A DNA stretch of 64,000 nucleotides from Bacteroidota bacterium (GTDB taxonomy: Bacteria > Bacteroidota > Bacteroidia > Flavobacteriales > Flavobacteriaceae). Positions within the stretch are counted from its first letter, which is position 1, and the number at the start of each line of letters is the position of its first letter. Below are positions 14,469 to 22,633 of this stretch, piece after piece. The translations under genes and the position numbers were made by a program. The notes beneath the pieces are model-generated. The model was not told where the DNA came from. It made no database searches and saw nothing but the letters and a program-made list of their open reading frames with translations. The DNA is taken from the NCBI GenBank assembly GCA_027619415.1, contig JAQCFO010000004.1, positions 31,835 through 95,834 on the forward strand, written 5' to 3'.

Positions 14469-15749
14469 TCAATAAGTATTTTTCATTTTTAATTTTATTT
14501 CTTTTAAACACAGATTACCTATGCTTCCTTTTAAGGTGTGATTAAATTTTCTATTTGGTTTAAACTTATTTAGTTCAATTTCATTTGAAATTTTTAAATA
14601 TGCATCTCTAAATGTCATTCCTTTAGAAACAAGATCGTTAATATTTTCTACTGAAAACATATATTTATACTTTTCATCATCAACTATTTTTTCTCTTATT
14701 TGTATTTTTTGAATTGTATAAGAAATTATTTTTATGCAGTTTTTAATTTCATTAACAGATTCTATTATTTTTCCTTTAAAAACCTGCATATCTCTATGAT
14801 ATCCACTGGTTAAGTTTGTTGAAACTATAGTAAACTCATTTGATAATGATTGAATTATATTACACTTAGCTCTGATTAATTCAAAAACATCTGGATTTTT
14901 TTTATGCGGCATTATACTAGAGCCAGTTGTAATTTCATTTGGAAAAGAAATGAAATTTAGTTCTTGAGTCATGTAAAAGCATATGTCAGCTGAAAATTTA
15001 GATAAAGTATGAGCAATAGATCCTATAGCAATTGCTACAGACTTCTCTGATTTTCCTCTATTCATTTGAGCTGAAACTACATTATACTTTAAGTCACTAA
15101 AACCTAACTCTTTTGTCGTGAAATCTCTGTCTATTTTAAAAGAACTTCCATATCCTGCTGCACTTCCAAGAGGATTTTGATCATTAATTTTAAATGCAGT
15201 ATTTATGTAGAGTATGTCATCAATTAGACATTCTGCATATGCAGAAAACCAAAGTCCAAATGATGATGGCATAGCAACTTGCATATGTGTATATCCTGGA
15301 ATTAAATTTTCTTTATTTTCATTGGAAAGTTTTATTAATATATCAAATAATTCTTTTGTCAATAATTTAATTTCACTCAATTCGTCTTTTAAATACAATT
15401 GAGTTGCAACTAGTACTTGATCATTTCTAGATCTACCAGTATGAATTTTCTTCCCGACATCTCCAAGTTTTTCAGTTAAGATGTATTCAATTTTTGAATG
15501 AACATCTTCAAATATTTCTTCAATTTCAAATGTCCCATTATTAATGTCATTATTAATTTTTTTTAATTCATTTAACAATTTATTTAATTCATTAGTATTT
15601 AAAATATTTATTTTACATAACATTTTAGCATGAGCTATAGATCCTATTATATCATATTTAGCTAAATACAAGTCATTTATCCTGTCATTTCCGATAGTAA
15701 AATTTTCTATTTTTTTATTCAATTCATCATTTTTATTCCAGAGTTTCAT
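14469..15749 (-). CDS. argH: Argininosuccinate lyase
   Basis: 426 residues, a little shorter than the usual ~460, mostly at the C-terminus. Fumarase/ASL superfamily motifs are present: DVHSKIEYILTEKLGDVGKKIHTGRSRNDQV, YTHMQVAMP and the signature loop GSSIMPHKKNPDVFE holding the catalytic Ser. It splits argininosuccinate to arginine and fumarate, the last step. Last gene of the arginine operon, 11 bp after the deacetylase. Confidence 0.95.
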   Translation of the reverse strand: MKLWNKNDELNKKIENFTIGNDRINDLYLAKYDIIGSIAHAKMLCKINILNTNELNKLLNELKKINNDINNGTFEIEEIFEDVHSKIEYILTEKLGDVGKKIHTGRSRNDQVLVATQLYLKDELSEIKLLTKELFDILIKLSNENKENLIPGYTHMQVAMPSSFGLWFSAYAECLIDDILYINTAFKINDQNPLGSAAGYGSSFKIDRDFTTKELGFSDLKYNVVSAQMNRGKSEKSVAIAIGSIAHTLSKFSADICFYMTQELNFISFPNEITTGSSIMPHKKNPDVFELIRAKCNIIQSLSNEFTIVSTNLTSGYHRDMQVFKGKIIESVNEIKNCIKIISYTIQKIQIREKIVDDEKYKYMFSVENINDLVSKGMTFRDAYLKISNEIELNKFKPNRKFNHTLKGSIGNLCLKEIKLKMKNTY

Positions 15750-15760
15750 AATTATTTTTT

Positions 15761-16816
15761 TTAAATAATATTATTTAATAATTTTAAATAAATAGGTATT
15801 GCTTTTTTAATTTCATCGATATAGATAAATTCATTTGCAGTATGAGACCTAGTTGAATCACCTGGACCAATTTTAATTGAAGGAAATGAAATTTTAGATT
15901 GATCAGATAAAGTAGGTGAGCCATATTTTTCAATTTTTAACTTATTTGCTGCTATAACTACAGGATGGTTAGTATAAATAGTAGATGAATTTAGATTCAA
16001 GGATCTAGGTTTGATTTCACATGGCGCTTCTTTTTTTAAAATCTCATAAATTTCATTGTTTGTATAACAGTCATTTACTCTAACATCTAATACCAATTCT
16101 AATTCTGAAGGAACGACATTGTGTTGATTTCCTGATTTAATTTGAGTTACTGTAACTTTGGTTTCTCCAAGAAATTTAGATTTCTTTTCAAAACGTATAT
16201 TGTTGATCCAATTTAAAACTTCAATAGAATTAATTATCGGATTATCGTTGTTTTCATGTGCAGCGTGACTTGACGTTCCTTTAATTTTTAAATCAAACAC
16301 AATCAAACCTCTTTCTGCAACAGCCATTTTCATTAGAGTTGGCTCACCTACTATAGCAAAATTAATTTCAGGAATTAAAGGAATAATTGAAGTAATACCA
16401 TTATTCCCAGAAGATTCTTCTTCTGCAGATGCTAAGATTATAATATTATATTTTAATTTTTTCTTGTTATATAAATATGTAAAAACAGCTATTAATGATA
16501 CAAGCGCACCTCCTGCGTCATTACTTCCTAAACCGTATAATTTCCCTTTGTCAATACTGTTGTCAAAAGGATTTCTGGTGTATCCTTTGTTTGGCTTTAC
16601 CGTATCATGATGAGAGTTTAAAAGAATTGTTGGCTTATTTATATCAAAAAATTTATTTTTAGCGTAGACATTGTTTTTATTTCTATTGAATTCAATGTCA
16701 TATTTTTTAAACCACTTTTCAATAATATTGGCTGTTTTTTCTTCGTTAAACGAAAACGATTCTTCTGCAATTAAATCTTGTAATAATTTTATTGCATTTA
16801 AAATTAATTTTTCCAT
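15761..16816 (-). CDS. argE: M20 metallopeptidase, N-acetyl (or N-succinyl) ornithine/citrulline deacylase
   Basis: 351 residues. M20 zinc ligands and catalytic residues are visible: LNSHHDTV (His and Asp), GSNDAGGALVSL (bridging Asp), SAEEESSGNNG (catalytic and ligand Glu) and VGEPT. The dimerisation domain and a final ligand His (RSHTANEF) are present. By operon context it removes the N-acyl group after carbamoylation, giving citrulline for ArgG. In Bacteroidetes this step acts on N-acetyl- or N-succinyl-citrulline because the carbamoyltransferase is of the ArgF' type. It overlaps argB by one base (ATGA-like junction). Confidence 0.88.
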   Translation of the reverse strand: MEKLILNAIKLLQDLIAEESFSFNEEKTANIIEKWFKKYDIEFNRNKNNVYAKNKFFDINKPTILLNSHHDTVKPNKGYTRNPFDNSIDKGKLYGLGSNDAGGALVSLIAVFTYLYNKKKLKYNIIILASAEEESSGNNGITSIIPLIPEINFAIVGEPTLMKMAVAERGLIVFDLKIKGTSSHAAHENNDNPIINSIEVLNWINNIRFEKKSKFLGETKVTVTQIKSGNQHNVVPSELELVLDVRVNDCYTNNEIYEILKKEAPCEIKPRSLNLNSSTIYTNHPVVIAANKLKIEKYGSPTLSDQSKISFPSIKIGPGDSTRSHTANEFIYIDEIKKAIPIYLKLLNNII

Positions 16817-17595
16817 TATTCTAAAGTTAATTTAGTACAATTATTTTCTTCGTTAATAATATTGTGATTTCCAATAAACACATTCTCCACACCTTTTTCC
16901 AAAGCAGAAAAACAATTTTCAATTTTCGGAATCATTCCATCAGTAATTATATTTTTATTTATTAAATCCTTGTATTCAGATAGTCTAATATATTTCTTTA
17001 TACTACTTTCGTCATTTTGATCAATTAATAAACCTGGTTTGTCAAAACAATATTTTAGAGTAACATCAAATTCTTTTGATAATGCAATAGAAACAACAGA
17101 AGTAATTGAGTCAGCATTAGTATTTAAAATTTGTCCTTGACCATCATGTGATAATGAACAAACAACAGGTGTTATATTAGAGTTTAATAAAATTTTAATA
17201 ATATCTACGTTAACTTCTTCTATATCTCCGACAAAGCCATAATCTATTTCATTAATAACTCTTTTTTTAGCTCTGATTAAATTGCAATCAACTCCAGACA
17301 AGCCTATTGTATTGCAATTGTATTTTTGAAGTTTAGCAACAATATTTTTGTTTAACAATCCCGCATAAGTCATTATGATTACATCTAAAGTTTTACCGTC
17401 TGTAATTCTTCTTCCATTTATTAATTTCGCGTCAATTCCAAGTTTGTTTAAGTTATCTGAAGCTACTAAACCACCTCCGTGAACTAGTAATTTCATTCCT
17501 TCAATTTTAGAAAAATCTTTTAAAAATTGATTTAAAATAATTTTATCATTTATTATGCCTCCTCCAACTTTAACTATTGTTAATTTATTTCTCAT
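16816..17595 (-). CDS. argB: N-acetylglutamate (or N-succinylglutamate) kinase
   Basis: 259 residues of the amino-acid kinase fold. Motifs: N-terminal IVKVGGGIIND (phosphate-binding Lys), LVHGGG and GLSGVDCNLIRAKKR, GQGQILNTNADSITSVVSIAL-type segment for substrate and ATP binding, DGMIPKIENC near the end. It phosphorylates the N-acylated glutamate. It lacks the N-terminal helix found in hexameric arginine-inhibited kinases, so allosteric arginine control is less likely. That would leave the leader region as the more likely arginine sensor (inference). Overlaps argF' by 11 bp. Confidence 0.93.
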   Translation of the reverse strand: MRNKLTIVKVGGGIINDKIILNQFLKDFSKIEGMKLLVHGGGLVASDNLNKLGIDAKLINGRRITDGKTLDVIIMTYAGLLNKNIVAKLQKYNCNTIGLSGVDCNLIRAKKRVINEIDYGFVGDIEEVNVDIIKILLNSNITPVVCSLSHDGQGQILNTNADSITSVVSIALSKEFDVTLKYCFDKPGLLIDQNDESSIKKYIRLSEYKDLINKNIITDGMIPKIENCFSALEKGVENVFIGNHNIINEENNCTKLTLE

Positions 17596-18535
17596 TAGTA
17601 ATCATTTTTTTTAAAATAATTTGAGCTGCATATGTTCTATTGTTAGCTTGTTGAATTACTAATGAATTATCTGAATCAATTACCTTGTCTGAAACAATTA
17701 CATTTCTTCTTACAGGGAGACAATGCATGAATTTTGCATTATTAGTTAATTCCATTTTTTCCGTATTAATTAACCATGAATTATCATTGAGCAATATTTT
17801 CCCGTAATTGTCATAGCTGGACCAATTTTTTGCATAAATAAAATCAGCATTTTTAAATGCTTTTTTTTGATCATAAATAACCTTTATTCCTTGAGTTATT
17901 TCTGGATTTAGATTATAACCTTCAGGATTAGCAATAACAAACTCATAATCAGTAACCTTCATCATATTAACAAATGAATTTGCAACAGCATGTGGAAGAG
18001 CTTTTGGGTGAGGCGCCCAGCTCAAAACTACTTTTGGTTTAGATGTTTTAATGTTTTCTTTAATTGTTATCGCATCAGCTAATGCTTGTAAGGGATGAGC
18101 TATAGAGCTCTCCATGTTTAATACTGGTACTGTCGCGTATTTTAAGAAAGAGTTTATTATTTTTTCTCCTTCATCATCAACTTTGTTTGTAAGAGTTGCA
18201 AATGCTCTAATTGCAATAATATCACAATATTGAGAAATAACTTTAGCTGCTTCTTTAATGTGTTCAGCTTTATCACCAGACATTATCGATTGATCTTCAA
18301 ATTCAAGATTCCATCCTTCATTATTAAAATTCATGATCATGGTATTTAAACCTAAAAGTGAAGCGGCTTTTAAAGTGCTCAACCTGGTTCTAAGACTTGG
18401 GTTAAAGAATATCATGCCTAAAATTTTATTTTCTCCAATTTTTTTAAAAGCATGTGAATTGTTTTTTAAAAATATCGCTTGTTTAACAAGAGATTTATAA
18501 TCCACTACATCATTAATGTTTATAAAATTTTTCAT
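17585..18535 (-). CDS. argF': N-acyl-L-ornithine carbamoyltransferase (ArgF', acetyl- or succinyl-ornithine type)
   Basis: 316 residues. The carbamoyl-phosphate loop is present as FFNPSLRTRLST (S-x-R-T-R), with HPLQALADA and the C-terminal HCLPVRRNV found in ArgF'-type enzymes (ordinary OTCases have HCLP with different neighbours). These enzymes carbamoylate N-acetyl- or N-succinyl-ornithine rather than free ornithine, as in Xanthomonas and Bacteroides. The segment I believe decides between acyl groups reads GDKAEHIKE (about residues 87-95). The key position appears to be Ala, where I expect Pro (succinyl) or Glu (acetyl); substrate stays open. Overlaps argD by 4 bp. Confidence 0.88.
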   Translation of the reverse strand: MKNFININDVVDYKSLVKQAIFLKNNSHAFKKIGENKILGMIFFNPSLRTRLSTLKAASLLGLNTMIMNFNNEGWNLEFEDQSIMSGDKAEHIKEAAKVISQYCDIIAIRAFATLTNKVDDEGEKIINSFLKYATVPVLNMESSIAHPLQALADAITIKENIKTSKPKVVLSWAPHPKALPHAVANSFVNMMKVTDYEFVIANPEGYNLNPEITQGIKVIYDQKKAFKNADFIYAKNWSSYDNYGKILLNDNSWLINTEKMELTNNAKFMHCLPVRRNVIVSDKVIDSDNSLVIQQANNRTYAAQIILKKMITNEK

Positions 18536-19659
18536 GATAATTCTATTTTTAAAGCATCATAAAGCATATCGATATGTTTTTTTTTAATATTTAAAGGAGG
18601 AAGTATTCTTAATAGATTTTTGTTTGAACTCCCACCAGTAAAAATTTTATGTTTAAAAATTAATTTTTTTCTCAGTTCTTTTACTTCAAAATCAAATTCT
18701 AAACCAAGCATTAAACCTCTTCCTTTAATATTCATTACTGATTTAATATTTGATATTTTTTTTATAAAATAGTTGCCTAATTCTTTTGAATTATTCATTA
18801 GTTGTTCATTTTCAATTGTTTGTAAAACTGCAATGACTGCTGAACAAGCGAGGTGATTTCCTCCAAAAGTTGTTCCTAACATACCGAATTGAGCATTTAT
18901 TTTTTTACTTATTAATACTCCACCAACAGGAAAGCCATTTCCCATTCCTTTTGCCATAGAGATAATATCTGGCTCGATTCCATGTTTTTGAAATGCAAAA
19001 AAGTCACCAGTTCTTCCAAAGCCTGATTGAACTTCATCAGCAATAAGGCACACATTACTTTTTTTACATATATCAGCTAAGAATTTAACAAAATCTGTAT
19101 CAGGCTCATTTAAACCGCCAACTCCCTGTATAGATTCAATTATTACTGCACACACATCCTTTTTACATATTTCTTTTTTTAGATTTTCTTTATCGTTAAA
19201 ATTTAAAAAAGTCACATTAATTGAATTATTAAGTTTGGATTTTATACTTAAGTTGTCCGTTGAAGCTAAAGCAGCATTACTTCTCCCATGAAATGAATTT
19301 TTAAATGCAATAATTTTTGATTTTCCTGTATTAAAAGAGGCTACTTGTAAAGCATTTTCATTTGCTTCTGCTCCAGTACTACACATGAATAGATTATAAT
19401 CTACGCAGTTAGACTGTTTTATAATTTCATCTGCAACTTTTTGCTGTAGCTCGTTAATTATATAATTTGAATAAAAACCAATTTTATTTAATTGATTTGA
19501 TAATTCTTTAATATATAATGGGTGACTGTGTCCGATTGAAATAACCGCATGACCACCATATAAATCAAGAAATTTTGTACCATCCTTGTCATATACATAA
19601 CATCCTTTAGCATGTGATGGTATAATTTGATATAAAGGATAAACATTGAATAAATTCAT
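18532..19659 (-). CDS. argD: N-acylornithine aminotransferase
   Basis: 375 residues, class III PLP aminotransferase. Seen: STGAEANENALQVA near the phosphate-binding site, HGRSNAALAST, LIADEVQSGFGRTG with the cofactor Asp, and the PLP lysine in SMAKGMGNGFPVGG. It converts N-acetyl- (or N-succinyl-) glutamate semialdehyde to the ornithine derivative using glutamate. Two bases separate it from argC and it overlaps argF' by four. Confidence 0.94.
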   Translation of the reverse strand: MNLFNVYPLYQIIPSHAKGCYVYDKDGTKFLDLYGGHAVISIGHSHPLYIKELSNQLNKIGFYSNYIINELQQKVADEIIKQSNCVDYNLFMCSTGAEANENALQVASFNTGKSKIIAFKNSFHGRSNAALASTDNLSIKSKLNNSINVTFLNFNDKENLKKEICKKDVCAVIIESIQGVGGLNEPDTDFVKFLADICKKSNVCLIADEVQSGFGRTGDFFAFQKHGIEPDIISMAKGMGNGFPVGGVLISKKINAQFGMLGTTFGGNHLACSAVIAVLQTIENEQLMNNSKELGNYFIKKISNIKSVMNIKGRGLMLGLEFDFEVKELRKKLIFKHKIFTGGSSNKNLLRILPPLNIKKKHIDMLYDALKIELS

Positions 19660-19661
19660 AT

Positions 19662-20660
19662 TTAAAACATTGAACTTTTTAATTTTAATCCTGCATTTTC
19701 ATTTAATTTGAACATTAAATTCATGTTTTGAATTGCTTGACCTGAAGCTCCTTTTATTAAATTATCAATAATTGAAGTGATTAATATTTTGTCATTACTC
19801 TTACTTATATGAATTAGACATTTGTTAGTGTTTATAACTTGTTTTAAATGAATTTCATTTTCAGAAATCACAACAAATGGATGGTTTTTATAAAATATTT
19901 TGTATAAATCTTTTATTACATTTAGATCAACATCACTGTTAAAATAACTAGTACAGAATATTCCTCTAGTAAAATTACCTCTAACTGGTAAGAAATTAAT
20001 TTTATTGGATTTGTTAGATATTTTATTAAATGAAAAATAAATTTCTCCTAGATGTTGATGAGTAAAGGGTTTGTACCAAGAAACATTGCTGTTTCTCCAA
20101 TTGAAATGTGATGTATTGTTAAGCTTTATTCCTGCTCCAGTACTTCCTGTTATGGCGTTGGTGTGAATTTCACTATTTATAAAATTATTTTTTATTGCGG
20201 GAATTAAACCCAACTGTATTGCAGTAGCAAAACATCCTGGATTTGAAATGTTTTTTGCATTTTTAATTTCTTCTTTTTGAAGTTCTGGTAAGCCGTAAAC
20301 AAAGGATCTGGTTGTATTGGTATTTTTTTTTACAAATGAGTTTTCAAGTCTAAAATCTTGACTTAAATCAATTATTCTAGTTTTAGGGTTTATATTGTGG
20401 TTATTTAAAAACTTATTTGAATTACCATGACCTAAGCATAAAAATAATACATCAACATTGTCAACTAGTTTGTTTACAAATTTCATATTTAATTCACCTG
20501 TTAGGTCTTGATGAATATCAGAAATATACCTTTCATTATTGACATTACTATACGCAAAAATTAGTTCAGATTCTGGGTGGTTTATTAGTAACCTTATAAG
20601 CTCCCCACCTGTATATCCAGATGCACCTACAATCCCAATTCCAATTTTATTTATTGACAT
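19662..20660 (-). CDS. argC: N-acetyl-gamma-glutamyl-phosphate reductase
   Basis: 332 residues. The N-terminal Rossmann fold begins GIVGASGYTGGELIRLL (NADP binding), and the catalytic cysteine is in NPGCFATAIQLGLIPA. Also seen are GSTGAGIKLNNTSHF and PFTHQHLGEI, and PVRGNFTRGIF near the substrate site. It reduces the acylglutamyl phosphate made by ArgB to the semialdehyde. The reading frame overlaps the 3' end of argG by 14 bp. Confidence 0.95.
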   Translation of the reverse strand: MSINKIGIGIVGASGYTGGELIRLLINHPESELIFAYSNVNNERYISDIHQDLTGELNMKFVNKLVDNVDVLFLCLGHGNSNKFLNNHNINPKTRIIDLSQDFRLENSFVKKNTNTTRSFVYGLPELQKEEIKNAKNISNPGCFATAIQLGLIPAIKNNFINSEIHTNAITGSTGAGIKLNNTSHFNWRNSNVSWYKPFTHQHLGEIYFSFNKISNKSNKINFLPVRGNFTRGIFCTSYFNSDVDLNVIKDLYKIFYKNHPFVVISENEIHLKQVINTNKCLIHISKSNDKILITSIIDNLIKGASGQAIQNMNLMFKLNENAGLKLKSSMF

Positions 20661-21825
20661 GTTTATATATTTTATTTTGATTAGAAGTAATTTTTATAAA
20701 ACCTTTCGCATCTTCAGCAGTCCATTTTTTATTTACTTCTCCGTAAGAACCAAAACCTGAATTCATAAGATCGTTATTTGATCTTATTCCATTTAATTCG
20801 AATCTATATGGGCTAAGAGTAGCAAATACTTCTCCGTTAACATTTTTTTGACTACTATCTAAAAAGCTTTCAATATCTCTAATTACAGGTTCTAAATACT
20901 GACCTTCATGAAGAAGCATGCCATAAAAATTTGATAATTGTTCTTTTTGGAATTGCTGCCATTTTGTTAACGTGTGTTTTTCTAATAAATGATGAGCTTT
21001 TAAAATTAACATTGGTCCTCCAGCTTGAAAACCAACTCTTCCTTTAATACCAATAATTGTATCACCAACGTGTATGTCTCTACCAATACAATATCGATCA
21101 CAAATTTTTGATATTTTTTCTATGCATTCGACCGGATCATATTGCTGATCGTCTATTCCAGAGATCTCTCCTTTATTAAAACTTAATTTAATTTCTTTTT
21201 TAAATGTGTTCTTTAGGCTGTTAGGATATGCTTCTTCTGGTAATTTTCTTTCAGAAGATAAAGTTTCGTAACCACCAATACTAGTACCCCAAAGTCCTTT
21301 ATTTATAGAATATTTTGCTTTTTCCCAATTAAATTTTACTCCATTATTTTTTAAATATTTAATTTCATCCTGCCTTGATAAATTACCATCTCTAATTGGA
21401 GTTATTATTTTAATTTCTGGAGCAATTACTTGAAAAACCATATCAAATCTAACTTGGTCATTTCCAGCTCCAGTGCTTCCATGAGCTAGATGGGTTGCAT
21501 TATGTTTTTTTGCGTATTTCGCTATTTCTAAAGCCTGTATAGTTCTTTCAGCACTTACTGAAAGAGGGTAGGTATTGTTCCTAAGTACATTTCCAAAGAC
21601 TAAAAATTTAATTATTTTATTGTAATATGATTGAACAGCATTAATTGATTTAAACTGAAATGCACCCATTTTAATTGCTTTTTCTTTAATTTTTTCAGTT
21701 TCACTTATTGTAAAGCCGCCAGTATTTATGTTAATCGCATGAACTTCATTTCCTTCTTTAGAAAGCTTATTAAGACAATATGAAGTGTCAAGACCTCCAC
21801 TATATGCTAATATTATTTTTTTCAT
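20647..21825 (-). CDS. argG: Argininosuccinate synthase
   Basis: 392 residues from the ATG at 21825. The track's earlier start (21867) lies inside the upstream acetyltransferase and adds 14 unlikely residues before MKKIILAYSGGLDTSYCL, the ATP pyrophosphatase P-loop. Other family motifs: HGSTGAGNDQVRFD and the ATP/citrulline segment SIGGYETLSSE; a tetramer C-terminus is present. It joins citrulline and aspartate. Its ATG overlaps the stop of the acetyltransferase by 4 bp, indicating translational coupling. Confidence 0.95.
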   Translation of the reverse strand: MKKIILAYSGGLDTSYCLNKLSKEGNEVHAININTGGFTISETEKIKEKAIKMGAFQFKSINAVQSYYNKIIKFLVFGNVLRNNTYPLSVSAERTIQALEIAKYAKKHNATHLAHGSTGAGNDQVRFDMVFQVIAPEIKIITPIRDGNLSRQDEIKYLKNNGVKFNWEKAKYSINKGLWGTSIGGYETLSSERKLPEEAYPNSLKNTFKKEIKLSFNKGEISGIDDQQYDPVECIEKISKICDRYCIGRDIHVGDTIIGIKGRVGFQAGGPMLILKAHHLLEKHTLTKWQQFQKEQLSNFYGMLLHEGQYLEPVIRDIESFLDSSQKNVNGEVFATLSPYRFELNGIRSNNDLMNSGFGSYGEVNKKWTAEDAKGFIKITSNQNKIYKHVNK

Positions 21826-22352
21826 TTGTTTGATTTTGAATTGTAAAGCATCCCTGTGCAAAGGCACATTTCTCTTTTGGTTCTAATTAATACATCATAA
21901 TTTTTACATGTTTGACAGCCTTTCCAGAATTCATCATCATCTGTCAACTCAGAGAAAGTCACTGGCTTGTATCCTAATTCGTAATTAATTTTCATAACTG
22001 GTAGACCAGTTGTTATCCCAAATATTTTGGCATCTGGATATTTTTTTTTTGAATGATTGAAAATCAGAGTTTTGATTTTCTTAGCTAACCCATTTCCTCT
22101 AAATTTTGGAGCAACGATTAACCCTGAATGAGCAACATATTTTCCATGACTCCATACCTCTATATAGCAAAAACCTGCAAATTCATTATTGTTAATAGCT
22201 ATTATGGCATTTTTATTTTCAATTTTAGTTCTTATATATTGAGGAGTCCTCAAAGCAATGCCAGTTCCTCTGACCTTGGCAGATAAACTAATAGTTTCTG
22301 AAATTATGTTACAATATTTAATGTGCTTCAATGAAGCAATGAGGATTTTCAC
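21822..22352 (-). CDS. GNAT acetyltransferase heading the arginine operon (probable N-acylglutamate synthase)
   Basis: About 176 residues if started at GTG 22352, giving VKILIASLKHIKYC. I prefer this to the track's ATG at 22436, which would overlap the leader peptide ORF and add a low-complexity stretch coded by a T11 run. GNAT features: beta4 HSGLIVAP, then the acetyl-CoA loop KFRGNGLAKKI (R/Q-x-x-G-x-G/A) and GYKPVTFSEL. A C-terminal cysteine set (GCQTCKNYD, MCLCTG) is unusual and could bind zinc. As first gene before argGCDF'BEH, and with no argA or argJ present, it probably supplies N-acetyl- or N-succinylglutamate. The role is inferred from context. Confidence 0.78.
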   Translation of the reverse strand: MKILIASLKHIKYCNIISETISLSAKVRGTGIALRTPQYIRTKIENKNAIIAINNNEFAGFCYIEVWSHGKYVAHSGLIVAPKFRGNGLAKKIKTLIFNHSKKKYPDAKIFGITTGLPVMKINYELGYKPVTFSELTDDDEFWKGCQTCKNYDVLIRTKREMCLCTGMLYNSKSNK

Positions 22353-22394
22353 GATGATTTTAAAAAAAAAAATAATTAAGATTGAATTTGAAAT

Positions 22395-22416
22395 GAAACT
22401 GGACTCACCTAGTTTC
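22395..22416 (-). promoter_or_regulatory. Hairpin in the arginine operon leader, directly after the leader-peptide stop
   Basis: Minus strand GAAACTAGG-TGAGT-CCAGTTTC: 6 bp plus 2 bp of stem, one bulged base and a 5-nt loop. It begins at the base following the TAA of the leader ORF, where a terminating ribosome would cover it. An U11 run lies 22 nt further on, so it is not a canonical terminator by itself; alternative folds with the GC-rich part upstream are possible. Confidence 0.55.
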
Positions 22417-22503
22417 TTAAATAGAAAAAGACCCAATAGGGCGGGCGCGACGTGAAACGCGAGTTATAGTAATGGCTATATATATTCTATTTATAAAATT
22501 CAC
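22417..22503 (-). CDS. Putative arginine leader peptide (28 codons)
   Basis: Not in the ORF track. On the minus strand a GTG at 22503 opens a 28-codon frame ending TAA (22419-22417). Its middle encodes TRVSRRARPIG, with Arg codons CGC, CGT, CGC, CGC within seven codons, plus one AGA earlier. The stretch is sharply GC-rich in an AT-rich genome whose proteins mostly use AGA. The GTG is 5 nt after a good promoter box, and the stop abuts a hairpin. The next gene is the first of the arginine operon. This is the layout of an amino-acid attenuator leader (compare hisL, trpL and ilvL of enterobacteria). There is no ATG in frame, so a leaderless GTG start must be assumed. Expression and function are inferred. 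Confidence 0.6.
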   Translation of the reverse strand: MNFINRIYIAITITRVSRRARPIGSFSI

Positions 22504-22508
22504 AAAAG

Positions 22509-22538
22509 CAAATATGAAATATTTTTTTGTATTTACAA
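22509..22538 (-). promoter_or_regulatory. Promoter of the arginine operon
   Basis: Minus strand TTG (22538-22536), 19-nt spacer, CATATTTG (22516-22509): the Bacteroidetes sigma-ABfr pattern TTG-N19-TAnnTTTG with one mismatch (C for T). The predicted transcript would start near 22503, giving about 150 nt of leader before the acetyltransferase gene. Confidence 0.6.
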
Positions 22539-22633
22539 AATTTTATTTTGAGTATCAATATCTCTAAATTAAAAGCATTTAGGGTAGGCAAGAGACTAAT
22601 TAGAATGGGACTGCTTATTATTTTGAATTTATT

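Follow-up and report, generated by a model that had tools for sequence, protein, structure and literature searches.

Results

The Arginine Operon and Its Leader

The window, which is the whole 64,000-nucleotide stretch of DNA that was analysed, comes from a marine flavobacterium and carries on its minus strand an arginine operon with the gene order GNAT-argG-argC-argD-argF'-argB-argE-argH. The first gene (21825 to 22352) encodes a GNAT acetyltransferase that matched Pfam PF00583 (Acetyltransf_1) and had no NCBIfam call; judging from its position, it may catalyse the N-acylglutamate synthase step. The genes argG to argH (14469 to 21828) were assigned from their ORFs with NCBIfam, which verified the gene order given in an earlier note on this DNA. 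The argF' product is N-acetylornithine carbamoyltransferase-like, and the argE gene encodes an argE-like deacylase. The operon is directly preceded by an unannotated Arg-rich leader ORF. A DUF6428 gene (PF20001; 22634 to 23101, minus strand) is located directly upstream of the leader.

The leader ORF (22503 to 22417, minus strand) comprises 28 codons, starts with GTG, and reads VNFINRIYIAITITRVSRRARPIGSFSI up to the stop codon at 22419 to 22417. The nearest relatives, L002 and L003, share its length and frame, and that of L014 is one codon longer. A -7-like promoter box, CATATTTG (22509 to 22516, minus strand), resembles the Bacteroidetes consensus TAnnTTTG and is preceded by a -33-like TTTG element (22536 to 22539, minus strand) with the spacing TTTG-N19-CATATTTG; the GTG at 22503 stands 5 nt past the box. 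In most relatives, a TAnnTTTG-like box was also found just 5' of the leader start, with its TTTG 4 to 10 nt before the start codon. Since the sigma-A box of a flavobacterium, TAnnTTTG, has a published position of -12 to -5 (PMC9723704) and the leader start follows closely behind, the transcripts would be nearly leaderless.

Four Arg codons (CGC, CGT, CGC, and CGC) are clustered within seven codons of the leader (22441 to 22461, minus strand); the ORF has one more Arg codon, an AGA close to its start. The 48 larger ORFs of the window use AGA 429 times, AGG 83 times, CGT 30 times, CGA 16 times, CGC 4 times, and CGG once; CGN codons account for 9% of their Arg codons (51/563) and CGC for 4/563. 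When all six frames of the window were divided into overlapping 11-codon segments, four or more CGN codons were present in 10 of 127,936. The GC content at 22429 to 22465 was 62%, compared with 28% for the window.

Two hairpins accompany the ORF. P1 (GCCC-UAUU-GGGU; 22431 to 22442, minus strand) lies within it, and P2 (GAAACU-A-GG-UGAGU-CC-AGUUUC; 22395 to 22416, minus strand) begins immediately past the stop codon. According to run and composition counts, the spacer from P2 to the GNAT gene (22353 to 22394, minus strand) is G-poor and C-containing, and a U11 tract at 22372 to 22362, shortly before the GNAT start at 22352, occurs only in the window's clade. The earlier note had described the promoter, the GTG 5 nt on, the 28-codon frame, the all-CGN cluster in an AGA-using context, the GC-rich patch, and a hairpin abutting the stop codon, all of which were confirmed on the minus strand. 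The range that it assigned to them, 22353 to 22538, mixes promoter and spacer; the functional core of the leader element is 22503 to 22395 (minus strand). The overlap of P1 with the Arg codons, the covariation of P2 with its near-invariant loop, and the lack of ArgR in Flavobacteriales, all described below, go beyond that note.

Conservation of the Leader in Related Loci

A single ArgG similarity search yielded 80 argG loci, 79 of which had upstream sequence (Flavobacteriaceae). Because these loci are mutually related, counts over them do not represent independent events, and the search of 248 genomes with an RNA model reported below is the less biased check. The same arrangement was present in 79/79 loci, 0.6 to 0.9 kb upstream of argG, and each contained an in-frame ORF of 21 to 32 codons whose terminal Arg codons run into P1. 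The leaders of the two nearest relatives, VNLLNRTFSAINILRVARGARPFGYLSI and VNFINRSFTATTFNSAPRRARPFGYFSI, have the length and frame seen in the window, and MKGQEYIAYTLSVPAPISPFRPRRRP, MKDATTYSLGTAAKFSPAPLRPRRP, and MIKVNHFSFTPRHPRRPFGGI are examples from more distant relatives. One clade starts with GTG, and at some loci the apparent start is TTG. Neither loss of the ORF or its Arg cluster nor frameshifting indels, which the earlier note had named as observations that would speak against it, was encountered in the relatives. The unannotated Arg-rich ORF is therefore a real and conserved feature, and its arrangement exceeds chance, given the rarity of the CGN cluster in the window and its recurrence in all 79 loci.

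The frame from the start codon to P1 was open in 75/75 distinct sequences, a count that holds partly by construction, compared with 1/75 for the +1 frame and 31/75 for the +2 frame. Within the ten codons leading up to P1, Arg accounted for 35%, compared with 2% in the remainder of the leaders of the argG loci, and each run contained two to seven Arg codons. Of the clustered Arg codons, 266/275 were CGY (152 CGC and 114 CGT, with nine of all other types), compared with 140/777 Arg codons in argG of the same loci. The few Arg codons outside the cluster were mostly AGA or AGG.

The peptide body showed pN/pS values of about 0.8, 0.8, and 1.1 in three clades and 0.28 in Muricauda-like genomes, with lengths preserved. 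Since the body is nearly free to change in three of four clades while its length is kept, the constraint falls chiefly on Arg codons, reading frame, and RNA rather than on the peptide sequence. At most loci the ORF ends in RRP and a stop codon; in several clades, including that of the window, it runs on as RPLGV, RPFGGI, RPFGYFSI, or RPLRVHFYV. The position of the stop codon floats across loci, the distance between the start of P1 and the ORF end ranging from 9 to 30 nt.

Two thirds of the loci (for example, L006, L012, and L024) carry the motif ACATA 12 to 18 nt downstream of the leader start codon, compared with 1.6% of argG control stretches; the window's clade does not have it. It falls in different reading frames and thus looks like a nucleic-acid element.

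Structure and Covariation of P1 and P2

P1 has the general form CGCCC/GGGYG, and its 5' arm holds the last Arg codon in 79/79 loci. In P2, a stem of 6 bp is followed by a bulge (mostly 1 to 2 nt), two GG/CC pairs, and a UGNGY loop; the loop sequence GGUGnGYCC is near-invariant among relatives. The spacing between P1 and P2 varied by only a few nucleotides across loci. Among 89 distinct aligned sequences, 94.1% of the cells of the P1-P2 model were paired and 8/11 pairs changed on both sides. The covariation score was 0.342, compared with 0.164 +/- 0.009 for shuffled alignments and values well below 0.342 for slid controls, although the alignment was fitted to the RNA model and so favours it. 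An independent count of the P2 stem gave 94% paired, compared with 77 +/- 2% with shuffled partners, and the inner P2 pair, elsewhere G-C, is replaced by A-U in L094 and L099. In P1, changes were limited to one compensatory pair in L093 (C-G to A-U, which also replaces Pro with Thr) and G-U/G-C alternation; the evidence for P1 is thinner than that for P2 because P1 is nearly invariant. Judged from these substitution patterns, P1 and P2 are shown to be conserved RNA structures.

P2 was also considered as a repeated genomic hairpin. In 833 kb, 100 P2-like sites were counted, a total (the total count alone was compared) close to the number of argG loci, and this idea was dropped. In the window's clade, early leader codons AAAUAGAA (22485 to 22493, minus strand) can pair over 8 to 10 bp with the linker UUCUAUUU (22419 to 22427, minus strand); such pairing would enclose the Arg codons and P1, and the window shares it in strong form with two near relatives. 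The mean z score over 79 loci was -0.19, indicating that this pairing is not general.

Distribution of the Element and of ArgR

The RNA model found one strong copy in the window's genome. In whole-genome searches of 248 Flavobacteriales, all 17 strong matches (E<1e-6; 13 genera), one per genome, were situated upstream of GNAT-argG, and the element is associated with this operon alone. Weaker matches in other families (E 1e-5 to 0.1) were set aside, as those inspected resembled ordinary terminators or coding sequence and had no argG or GNAT gene nearby. A search of the wider class matched 5/295 genomes, comprising four Flavobacteriaceae and one weak match, so the signal fades outside the family. 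Related Arg-rich leader frames were seen in two other families (RRRPVRV in L120 and RRPLWV in L127). None of the Rfam 15 covariance models matched at the element, either in the window at the gathering threshold or in six related loci at E values up to 5.

In one genus of Flavobacteriaceae, g2 (probably Flavobacterium), the same GNAT gene is preceded by a different conserved leader, MNKTSxHITSLSRTNRPxTSPEVRML (L114 to L119, about 210 to 330 nt upstream). This leader contains a hairpin, GTACTTC-TCCC-GAAGTAC, inside its frame, and its Arg codons, just three in number, are of mixed types.

The ArgR C-terminal domain (PF02863) was detected in 0/248 Flavobacteriales genomes, and 8/14 controls were positive, including a Bacteroides. 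The window's genome is 86% complete; the absence of ArgR is a pattern across the order. Flavobacteriales thus appear to lack the usual arginine repressor, so arginine control in this order must rest on something else. Rho is encoded in the window's genome.

Discussion

Leaders that sense codons are a known kind of control. We consider it likely that the element described here acts in cis as an arginine-codon sensor, placed in the 5' leader of the mRNA from the GNAT-arg operon, and the sensing half of this reading is well supported by the comparison of leaders. The transcription start is expected only a few bases from the start codon of the leader, giving an almost leaderless mRNA whose leader would be taken up by a ribosome at once, and the ribosome would then read two to seven Arg codons, the clustered ones nearly all CGY, up to and into P1. 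During a shortage of charged tRNA-Arg, the ribosome would stall on the CGY run and mask the 5' arm of P1. The footprint of a ribosome is of known size and large enough for one stalled on these codons to cover that arm; P1 therefore could not form, and we propose that the operon would be expressed. When arginine is plentiful, the ribosome would pass through and leave, P1 would form beside P2, and expression into the operon would be stopped. We infer the stalling on arginine shortage, the direction of control, and the formation of P1 as the off state. Stalling should correspond to the on state, as the operon is biosynthetic. The P1-P2 spacing is kept while the stop codon floats, so the geometry of Arg codons, P1, and P2 is what is conserved, and the stalled state, rather than the termination state, has a fixed geometry. 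Some features sit less easily with codon sensing: a plain attenuator needs no strongly conserved P2 loop, the Arg codons can be as few as two, GTG and TTG starts occur, and the g2 leader differs.

The ORF end raises the question of whether the nascent peptide itself could arrest the ribosome. TnaC also ends in Arg-Pro-stop and stalls with tryptophan, and the Arg-Arg-Pro-stop that closes the ORF in most loci could by analogy stall a terminating ribosome with free arginine as the ligand. We regard this as highly improbable, as the stop floats and the ORF extends past RP in several clades, the window's among them; L093 has Thr in place of Pro together with the compensating change in P1; three clades out of four show an almost neutral peptide body; and the clustered codons shun AGA and AGG, which a constraint on the peptide would permit. 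A TnaC-like set of residues conserved up to a fixed stop was not found in the argG loci. The covarying P2 stem and its near-invariant GGUGnGYCC loop go beyond what codon sensing requires and could instead mark P1-P2 as a metabolite riboswitch or a protein-binding site to which the ORF is secondary. However, P1-P2 has few base pairs and is only some 45 nt long, no expression platform is shared in the spacer to GNAT, and the CGY-biased Arg run and the frame preserved in 79/79 loci would be left without explanation, which makes this reading unlikely. The conservation of the P2 loop, which neither codon sensing nor termination at P1 or by Rho accounts for, points to a partner of P2.

The earlier note had proposed a probable attenuator with U11 as the terminator tract. 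The Arg-codon cluster, the conserved frame, and the overlap with a hairpin agree with attenuation; a terminator and antiterminator that exclude each other, followed by a U tract, do not emerge. U11 was rejected as a terminator tract, being restricted to one clade and having no hairpin directly before it, and the longest T run in the gap between P2 and GNAT was mostly 3 to 6 across loci. Neither a conserved intrinsic terminator nor a terminator/antiterminator pair was found in the leaders of the relatives, and folding with a ribosome placed on the Arg codons revealed no shared alternative structure. Because a conserved terminator was not found, the off switch is put forward as a proposal, for which the candidates are Rho-dependent termination, a weak P1/U-rich termination site, and action through P2.

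Within the codon-sensing reading, P1 itself could be the terminator, a short GC hairpin with a U-rich stretch that a stalled ribosome would mask. The P1 of the window, followed by CUUUUUCUAU, scored as terminator-like, the only such match, and the linkers of relatives are pyrimidine-rich. We find this version rather doubtful, given that the terminator likeness is weak outside the window, the stem has 4 to 5 bp, most relatives have no continuous U run after P1, and the conserved P2 lies downstream, where it could be transcribed only by polymerases that had escaped P1. Alternatively, Rho may act in the gap after the leader, with the stalled ribosome barring it and release exposing the G-poor, C-containing stretch. 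This gap contains 18.8% C and 5.4% G, compared with 17.1% C and 11.3% G upstream of other genes, Rho is present in the genome, and the Salmonella speF leader employs Arg codons plus Rho (PMC6386406). Since the gap is G-poor and Rho is present, Rho is the leading candidate for the off step, at low confidence; the gap of just 38 to 52 nt is short for a typical rut site and termination zone unless the leader and linker contribute, and Rho action is a tentative possibility. A bolder proposal is that the tandem P1-P2 is a new transcription-control RNA of Bacteroidetes, ribosome-gated on a leaderless mRNA, in which the UGNGY loop would act directly on RNA polymerase, Rho, or another factor, no classical terminator would be used, and ArgR would have been replaced across Flavobacteriaceae. 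We regard this as speculative and rather unlikely.

Returning to the arginine-codon sensor, its closest known counterparts share parts of the design. As in the enterobacterial his, trp, phe, and ilv attenuators, a short ORF rich in the cognate codon precedes the operon and its codons run into a hairpin; here, in contrast, the mRNA is nearly leaderless, there is an extra hairpin with a near-invariant loop, and a conserved terminator or mutually exclusive hairpins were not found among the relatives. Enterobacterial arginine operons use the ArgR repressor instead. The Bacteroid-trp motif contains a leader ORF with Trp codons. This cis-regulatory RNA, predicted for an amino-acid pathway in Bacteroidetes (Rfam RF01692; PMC2864571), differs from the present element in amino acid and operon, and it was not matched when the window and six related loci were scanned with Rfam. 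In the Salmonella speF leader, consecutive Arg codons of orf34 sense arginine in combination with RNA refolding and Rho (PMC6386406), but this leader controls ornithine decarboxylase (polyamines), uses AGG/CGG, and has a conserved peptide domain and a long 5' UTR; no sequence relation between the two leaders was seen. The rbfL ORF of Staphylococcus aureus (PMC13009471) is likewise short, starts with GUG, and senses arginine restriction through Arg codons, but it has eight codons, uses AGA/AGG, and works in a Shine-Dalgarno-based manner, occluding the ribosome site of a biofilm regulator and thereby repressing its translation. The Corynebacterium ilvB-II uORF motif (PMC10272879) is also a conserved RNA motif that is a codon-sensing leader before a biosynthetic operon, although for branched-chain amino acids and in Actinobacteria. 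A further Bacteroidetes hairpin motif, the GUCCY-hairpin (table entry in PMC2864571), is named for the sequence GUCCY, and the loop of P2 closes with GUCC or GCCC. For F. psychrophilum, leader-peptide attenuation before amino-acid operons is noted in the main text of PMC9723704, which gives no details. No description of an arginine leader in Flavobacteriaceae was found in the literature searched, which included the main text of PMC9723704 and the table entry of the GUCCY-hairpin motif.

The leader offers a concrete answer to how arginine synthesis may be controlled in a large and ecologically important group that appears to lack ArgR. It also adds an RNA family, located on near-leaderless mRNAs without Shine-Dalgarno sequences, to a phylum with few described amino-acid leaders. 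Because the clustered Arg codons are CGY whereas AGA is favoured elsewhere in the leader and in the genome, these loci would provide a natural test of whether leader codons report particular tRNA isoacceptors.
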